Virus record (IMG/VR): IMGVR_UViG_3300008261_000209 | Location: 1-20,250 of that record | From: a virus | DNA length: 20,250 nt | Reading direction: 5' to 3' (one strand) | Shown here: piece by piece, positions 19,176-19,241 of the stretch | Layout: each line of letters begins with the position of its first letter | Numbering within the stretch: position 1 is the first letter of the stretch | Program-made: the position numbers and the translations under genes | The notes under the pieces: model-generated | Told to the model about the DNA's origin: nothing | What the model saw: the letters and a program-made list of their open reading frames with translations, nothing else | The model's database searches: none

Positions 19176-19241
19176 CTATCCGTGAACTGACACGACAGTT
19201 TGTACCTCGGGCAGTCAAAGTTGCCCAGGTAGCACGGATAG
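19176..19241 (-). ncRNA. three-way junction element before first leftward gene
   Basis: CTATCCGTG (19176-19184) pairs with CACGGATAG (19233-19241), 9 perfect bp. Inside are two hairpins: AACTG/CAGTT (19185-19200, six-base loop) and TACCT-c-GGGCA / TGCCC-AGGTA (19203-19231, ten bp with one bulged base and an eight-base loop). Only three bases are unpaired at the junction. It lies 25 bases upstream of the start at 19150, where a cis-acting translation switch would act. Confidence 0.7.

Follow-up and report, generated by a model that had tools for sequence, protein, structure and literature searches.

The DNA analysed here, a 20,250-base virus record referred to as the window, carries genes for a DNA polymerase and a primase/helicase among its leftward genes and a large terminase gene in the rightward direction. 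The leftward series, on the minus strand, is opened by an ORF of 133 amino acids at 18749–19150 (gene 1), which has no match in PHROGs and none above the cut-off in Pfam. Homologs of gene 1 are carried by nine IMG/VR contigs, two of which (L002 and L003) are identical over the stretch compared. A small minus-strand ORF at 18478–18624 (gene 2, 48 residues) was read by eye, being too short for the ORF list. Among INPHARED phages, no DNA similarity to the region or to the leader of relative L006 was found, and a protein search with the 133-residue ORF returned nothing either. Two other minus-strand genes of unknown function, at 16519–17235 and 18173–18469, have wide phage kin, namely phrog_2554 (E 2e-29), and phrog_554 / Pfam Kyano_Gp96 (E 3e-10). 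In the noncoding DNA upstream of the leader, a palindrome near TTTAGAATGATTCTAA at 19733–19750 is possibly an operator or a replication site; it recurs several times in relatives, in L002 around 4103–4120, 4300–4320 and 4400–4420. The same noncoding region is flanked by GT/CA-rich, microsatellite-like stretches (19950–20090), also seen in relatives, as at about 3980–4070 and 4165–4215 of L002.

Just 5′ of gene 1, the minus-strand RNA forms a three-way junction at 19176–19241, designated TLS1. Its closing stem P1 has nine base pairs (19233–19241 with 19176–19184). P2 has ten (19222–19231 with 19203–19213), with a bulged G at 19208 and the 8-nt loop ACUUUGAC, and P3 has five (19196–19200 with 19185–19189) beneath the 6-nt loop UCGUGU. 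The linkers are one nucleotide between P1 and P2 and two between P2 and P3, and P3 abuts P1 directly. A description made earlier from the letters of the window alone (the sequence-only reading) had given the same stem lengths (9, 10 and 5 bp), three unpaired junction bases and a distance of 25 nt to the start codon (here the ATG at 19150), all of which agree with the minus-strand fold; the bulged G was absent from it. A CCA lies directly 3′ of P1 (19173–19175) and is present in seven of the eight distinct first copies read, the L027 copy having CAA at that place. G19176, the last base of P1, stands at the place of position 73. The minimum free energy on the minus strand is −29.0 kcal/mol (z −5.1), and none of 200 shuffles was as stable. 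Since the plus strand folds equally well (z −5.1), folding energy gives no choice of strand; the strand is the minus one, that of the mRNA, because the U-G and G-U cells in P1 and P2 of the homologs would be A-C or C-A on the plus strand. By eye, the UUUG of the P2 loop could pair over 3–5 bp with CAA(A) in the 3′ flank in several copies, a pairing without covariation because this near-invariant loop hardly varies. An xrRNA is a three-way junction with a ring-forming pseudoknot at its 5′ end and a pseudoknot between a loop and the 3′ flank.

A three-way junction stands just 5′ of the gene 1 start codon in all ten contigs, that is, the window and the nine IMG/VR relatives. A pattern scan gave 19 stretches, seven of them with the element; the other 12 fold differently and were dropped. 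Five relatives were aligned over 64 columns without gaps, and a covariance model built from these, with the window left out, recovered TLS1 with 65.1 bits (E 3.7e-16 in 202,421 bases searched). In the alignment including the window (five distinct rows), 115 of 115 paired cells are paired and 10 of 23 pairs are changed on both sides, a count reached by 0 of 500 shuffles, with slid structures having at most one pair changed on both sides. The loops UUUGAC (P2) and UCGNG (P3) and the bulged G stay constant while the stems vary. The sequence-only reading had proposed covariation as its check and the uncompensated loss of one arm in close relatives as its refutation; covariation is present, and no such loss occurs among the five distinct sequences. 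The proposal of a functional RNA element in the leader is thereby supported, through the covariation and the match of the held-out model.

The more distant L027 and L034 are outside the 115-cell count, and the covariance model misses their junctions. The L027 junction has a z of −2.2 (matched by 4 of 200 shuffles) and that of L034 a z of −3.6 (matched by 0 of 200); the case for both as equivalents of TLS1 rests on position and fold. The L027 copy has a different P1 (CUACCUUGU/ACAAGGUAG) with the same P2 loop UUUGAC and lacks both CCA and T-loop. The L034 copy has the CCA and a short T-stem.

The covariance model, again without the window, also finds a shorter, homologous second copy 3′ of gene 1, at 1315–1361 in L011 and at 1927–1973 in L031 (E 1.4e-4). 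In L031 it reads UCCUAUG - CCAUAGGGUUGCC - GUCUG UUCAAGU CAGAC - CAUAGGA - G - CCA. Its acceptor stem of 7 bp encloses a 5-bp T-stem topped by a canonical T-loop, and a position-73 base and CCA follow. The L011 copy has the canonical T-loop and CAA instead of CCA. In the corresponding gap of L002, L004 and L006, AAGGCGA...UCGCCUU-CCA encloses a T-arm; its stem occurs in two forms, AGGGG/CCCCU and UGGGG/CCCCA, related by one compensated change. In L027 (= L032) UGUAAAU...AUUUACA-G-CCA encloses GUACG UUCGAGU CGUAC. The canonical 7-nt T-loop is found on the second copies of L002, L004, L006, L011, L031 and L032. A second copy exists in most relatives; L034 is without one. The short link from acceptor to T-arm carries GG, by eye, in each second copy; GG is also found in the tRNA D-loop. 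In the copies of L031, L032 and the unrelated phage contig L036, the stack is 12 bp long and a single base separates it from the CCA. A third, weak model match in an ORF region of L011 (6851–6907, minus strand; 12.8 bits, E about 1) was taken as chance.

The second copy of the window itself, TLS2, is a TLS2-like element before gene 2 at 18646–18733 on the minus strand. Its minimum-energy fold (z −7.3, 0 of 200 shuffles) is cloverleaf-like, with a 7-bp closing stem AACACAA/UUGUGUU, arms of 3, 19 and 6 bp and then CCA, and it is without the T-loop consensus. An intrinsic terminator may make up part of it. By eye, the ATG of gene 2 lies 21 nt behind the CCA of TLS2 and that of gene 1 lies 22 nt behind the CCA of TLS1.

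The best reading of TLS1 is that of a tRNA-like structure lacking the anticodon arm: P1 as acceptor mimic and P3 as T-arm mimic are stacked and followed by G-CCA, and P2 stands where a tRNA has its D and anticodon arms. An acceptor-like stem, a T-arm-like hairpin abutting its 3′ strand and a CCA behind it (19173–19175) are all present. The P3 loop has 6 nt (UCGUGU or UCGAGU in first copies) and not the canonical 7-nt UUCRANY form, and the stack has 9+5 bp (14 bp) as against the 7+5 of tRNA. It is not a canonical cloverleaf with D and anticodon arms: ARAGORN found no tRNA gene in the window and called none at any mimic run, and the Rfam tRNA model scores no mimic. Nor did Rfam or ARAGORN find a tmRNA, and a tmRNA was set aside. 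The idea that integration into a tRNA gene had left the module behind was likewise set aside; the module has both acceptor strands, and the recombinase, of the serine type by eye, is 8 kb off. Rfam, at gathering and permissive thresholds, has no family for the element or the leader. The tRNA likeness, with its stacked acceptor and T-arm and its CCA, had been absent from the sequence-only reading, as had the large RNA upstream described below.

A strict scan, requiring a 7-bp acceptor, a 5-bp T-stem, a UUCRANY loop and CCA, gave five matches in the 81,476 bases of the gene 1 family and none in 60 shuffled sets. In thirteen other loci (114,605 bases) its one match is, by eye, an ordinary tRNA gene of the archaeal contig L033. 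With the CCA requirement dropped, there were eight family matches, two of them the tRNA-Thr genes of L002 and L004, and two matches in the other loci. These true tRNA-Thr genes are without an encoded CCA, whereas the mimics beside them have one. The strict scan found neither TLS1 nor anything else in the window. The matches of a looser scan to TLS1 are circular and no evidence, because its allowed loops were modelled on TLS1.

Is the module confined to this family? The pattern of shared letters occurs in 10 IMG/VR stretches, seven from gene 1 family contigs and three from others. One of the three, L036, is a GC-rich, unrelated phage contig whose copy lies behind an ORF, between ORFs, and has features outside the pattern, namely CCCC/GGGG pairs, a UUCGAGU loop and CCA. 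The other two, L035 and L037, are near-identical phage contigs with a copy between a ParB-like gene (Pfam ParB_N slightly below cut-off) and the next ORF; this copy has a longer P1 and no CCA. The model E-values of the three copies, 5.5e-9 to 5.7e-7, overstate independence because the pattern had selected these matches. The expectation that the same element would turn up near unrelated genes thus holds for L035, L036 and L037. A profile search of genome contigs gave 63 pattern stretches and no relatives; the sole motif match in genome contigs, in L033, sits within an archaeal protein gene and was rejected as chance. With blastn, the second copy of L002 gave 50 records, among them T-arms of phage tRNAs and tmRNAs; seven of the 50 were examined, so that the result speaks of occurrence and not of frequency; some matches are unannotated intergenic sites. 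The copy of L036 gave eight phage records, weak and partial (best E 0.04), and that of L031 gave none among phages.

Similar folds were seen in Streptomyces phage Dagobah, where an unannotated, intergenic and compact acceptor/T-arm stack lacks CCA (L038 283–326), and in the Camvirus phages phiScoe44, phiScoe55 and Verabelle, where one near-identical, unannotated three-way junction sits in a 100-nt gap before a gene (L039 264–365; L047 and L048 164–265). ARAGORN, run on L038 and L039, made no call for these folds. The best Rfam match of the two Camvirus copies scanned is mascRNA-menRNA, with 26.4 bits against a cut-off of 42.5.

Upstream of TLS1, the preceding 300–350 nt are conserved as structure in six relatives. 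For leader and TLS1 together, 34 of 85 predicted pairs are changed on both sides. Of the 499 cells, 93.8% are paired, compared with 81.2% in shuffles and 37–43% in slid structures. With P1, P2 and P3 of TLS1 excluded, 28 of the remaining 62 pairs are changed on both sides. All these counts lean towards the structure, since they were made on the very alignment that served to predict it. In the relatives, the whole upstream domain is shut 8–10 nt before TLS1 by a CAC/GUG pairing of 3 bp that does not vary. All eight viral matches of the leader-RNA motif are gene 1 family contigs. In the window, the place of this large RNA is taken by a hairpin-rich leader of about 440 nt on the minus strand, with approximate boundaries at 19242–19683. 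Its sequence aligns poorly with the relatives, and its fold (19140–19660) has a z of −3.2 on the minus and −3.6 on the plus strand; by its position, it is presumably the counterpart of the relatives' large RNA. Neither the window nor L002, L004, L006, L011 and L018 have an Rfam match to OLE, ROOL or GOLLD, or to a riboswitch or leader family at the gathering cut-off, and the window at 19100–19760 has no match to mascRNA-menRNA (RF01684) up to E 10. The Bacteroidota promoter consensus is TTG / TAnnTTTG. A promoter-like site, TTG-N-TTAGTTTG, stands at 19690–19720 of the minus strand as a relaxed match only, and the strict consensus occurs in two of eight leaders (L006 and L034), a weak result.

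Bacterial RNase P recognises the stacked acceptor and T-arm of its substrates. It also pairs with RCCA, according to the available text of PMC12710915. Host RNase P might accordingly be expected to read TLS1 as a tRNA precursor and cut at its 5′ side, at about 19241/19242. Such a cut would set the structured leader RNA free as a separate large molecule whose 3′ end is defined, and would leave the gene 1 mRNA with the folded tRNA-like structure as a 5′ cap. The second tRNA-like structure would separate the gene 1 mRNA from the next gene, and in the window TLS2 (18646–18733) would act likewise for gene 2. The transcript of the first leftward operon would then contain a tRNA mimic cut by RNase P, amounting to tRNA punctuation of a phage operon. 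This is the simplest and our favoured reading, taken from sequence, and we give it a probability of roughly 0.45. The covariation, the second copies, the strict scan, the encoded CCA of mimics beside true tRNA-Thr genes that lack one, the module of L036, the covarying RNA upstream and the known RNase P substrates with tRNA-like folds argue for it. The 6-nt loop, the 9+5 stack, the deviations of L027 and L034, the missing second copy of L034, a TLS2 without T-loop and the absence of any mimic from the ARAGORN and Rfam tRNA results argue against it. The 12 stretches that fold differently and the weak promoter result lend it nothing. The cap protecting the 5′ side of the mRNA, one of the functions in the sequence-only reading, comes close to this model, in which, however, it would be a product of the cut at the mimic.

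Could TLS1 serve in some other way? The 133-residue protein, or another phage protein, might bind the junction and control its own translation or decay; the fold does stand before gene 1 in 10 of 10 contigs, with the UUUGAC and UCGNG loops and the bulged G kept while the stems change. The AlphaFold model of the protein (pLDDT 84, pTM 0.78) has the dsRNA-binding p19 as its nearest solved fold among 1000 chains aligned. This likeness of a predicted fold would weakly favour autoregulation, but at a Z of up to 4.8 it is below any useful threshold and, as a lead only, too weak to name a relationship; at E ≤ 0.001 the fold comparison gave nothing in the PDB (115 at E ≤ 10) or in BFVD (690 at E ≤ 10). 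With the module also found behind gene 1 and in phages without gene 1, and a protein site needing neither CCA nor T-loop, autoregulation seems unlikely. Distinctly unlikely is an uncut 5′ structure that blocks exonucleases or keeps the start codon open, its tRNA likeness being incidental. Stability (z −5.1) and the constant short distance from CCA to ATG (by eye, 22 nt for gene 1 and 21 nt for gene 2) would suit it, but the conserved loops, the CCA and the T-loops of the second copies demand more than stability, and TLS1 would lie some 440 nt inside the leader if the place of the weakly supported promoter holds.

Several host factors among the aminoacyl-tRNA synthetases, EF-Tu, the CCA enzyme and tRNA nucleases bind acceptor, T-arm and CCA. 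All three parts are present here, and the 12-bp stack with one base before CCA in the copies of L031, L032 and L036 also suits a decoy or substrate for such factors. Against this, there is no anticodon, the P2 arm varies between copies, and the decoy could be charged only after 3′ trimming because its CCA is internal in the transcript; we regard this role as highly improbable. Smaller still is the chance that leader and junction form one large riboswitch-like cis-regulatory RNA with the junction as its 3′ domain. The relatives' leader does covary (34 of 85 pairs including TLS1) and travels with gene 1, with 8 of 8 viral motif matches in the family, but Rfam holds no riboswitch for it and the tRNA-like module occurs alone behind gene 1 and in other phages. 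Of what the sequence-only reading had offered, the functional leader element stands on its covariation and the held-out match, the protein-binding leader keeps a small probability, and the riboswitch finds no support, with no Rfam family and with related modules behind gene 1 and in unrelated phages.

RNase P punctuation at TLS1 would make use of tRNA mimics as processing sites, a kind already known, in an arrangement that is new. In a literature search largely confined to papers outside subscription, no description was found of a phage operon punctuated by paired mimics that carry CCA and lack an anticodon, or of this large RNA. A wider and more doubtful proposal is that several unrelated phage groups punctuate their transcripts with compact anticodon-less mimics, most with their own CCA, and that here two of them stand on either side of the first early gene and set free a new RNA, large and ornate, in a phage parallel to MALAT1-mascRNA; this RNA might work together with the 133-residue protein. 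If true, tRNA punctuation, known from mitochondria, would also exist in DNA phages through dedicated mimics missed by ARAGORN, a large phage RNA that is itself new would receive a defined 3′ end, and a phage would have a simple route to shape its early mRNAs through the host's essential RNase P.

Ornate large RNAs such as OLE, ROOL and GOLLD occur in phages. Like the leader RNA described here, they are elaborate bacterial RNAs of several hundred nucleotides (available text of PMC12286853), and they differ in that the leaders searched have no Rfam match. RNase P is described as cutting phage RNAs, operon mRNAs and the ornate OLE RNA in bacteria, and MALAT1 and t-elements in its nuclear or organellar forms, in the accessible parts of PMC4919922 and PMC11143913 (t-elements also in PMC8003010). 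M3 RNA, C4 RNA, the T4 gene 32 mRNA, operon mRNAs and OLE RNA are phage, operon or large ornate RNAs cut by RNase P, as proposed here, whereas a pair of acceptor/T-arm/CCA mimics framing a gene is not among the bacterial and phage substrates in those parts of PMC11143913 and PMC4919922. In plant mitochondria, t-elements and tRNA punctuation offer intergenic tRNA-like folds that set mRNA ends (PMC8003010 and PMC4919922, in the portions available). They are, however, organellar, and plants use a protein-only RNase P. To our knowledge, t-elements are not expected to have an encoded CCA. The closest likeness in arrangement is to MALAT1-mascRNA/menRNA (RF01684), in which a tRNA-like fold stands right behind a long non-coding RNA and RNase P makes the 3′ end of that RNA (PMC4919922, available text). 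Those are animal nuclear RNAs, whereas the present case is a predicted phage transcript, with a gene behind the mimic and, in most relatives, a second mimic behind that gene.
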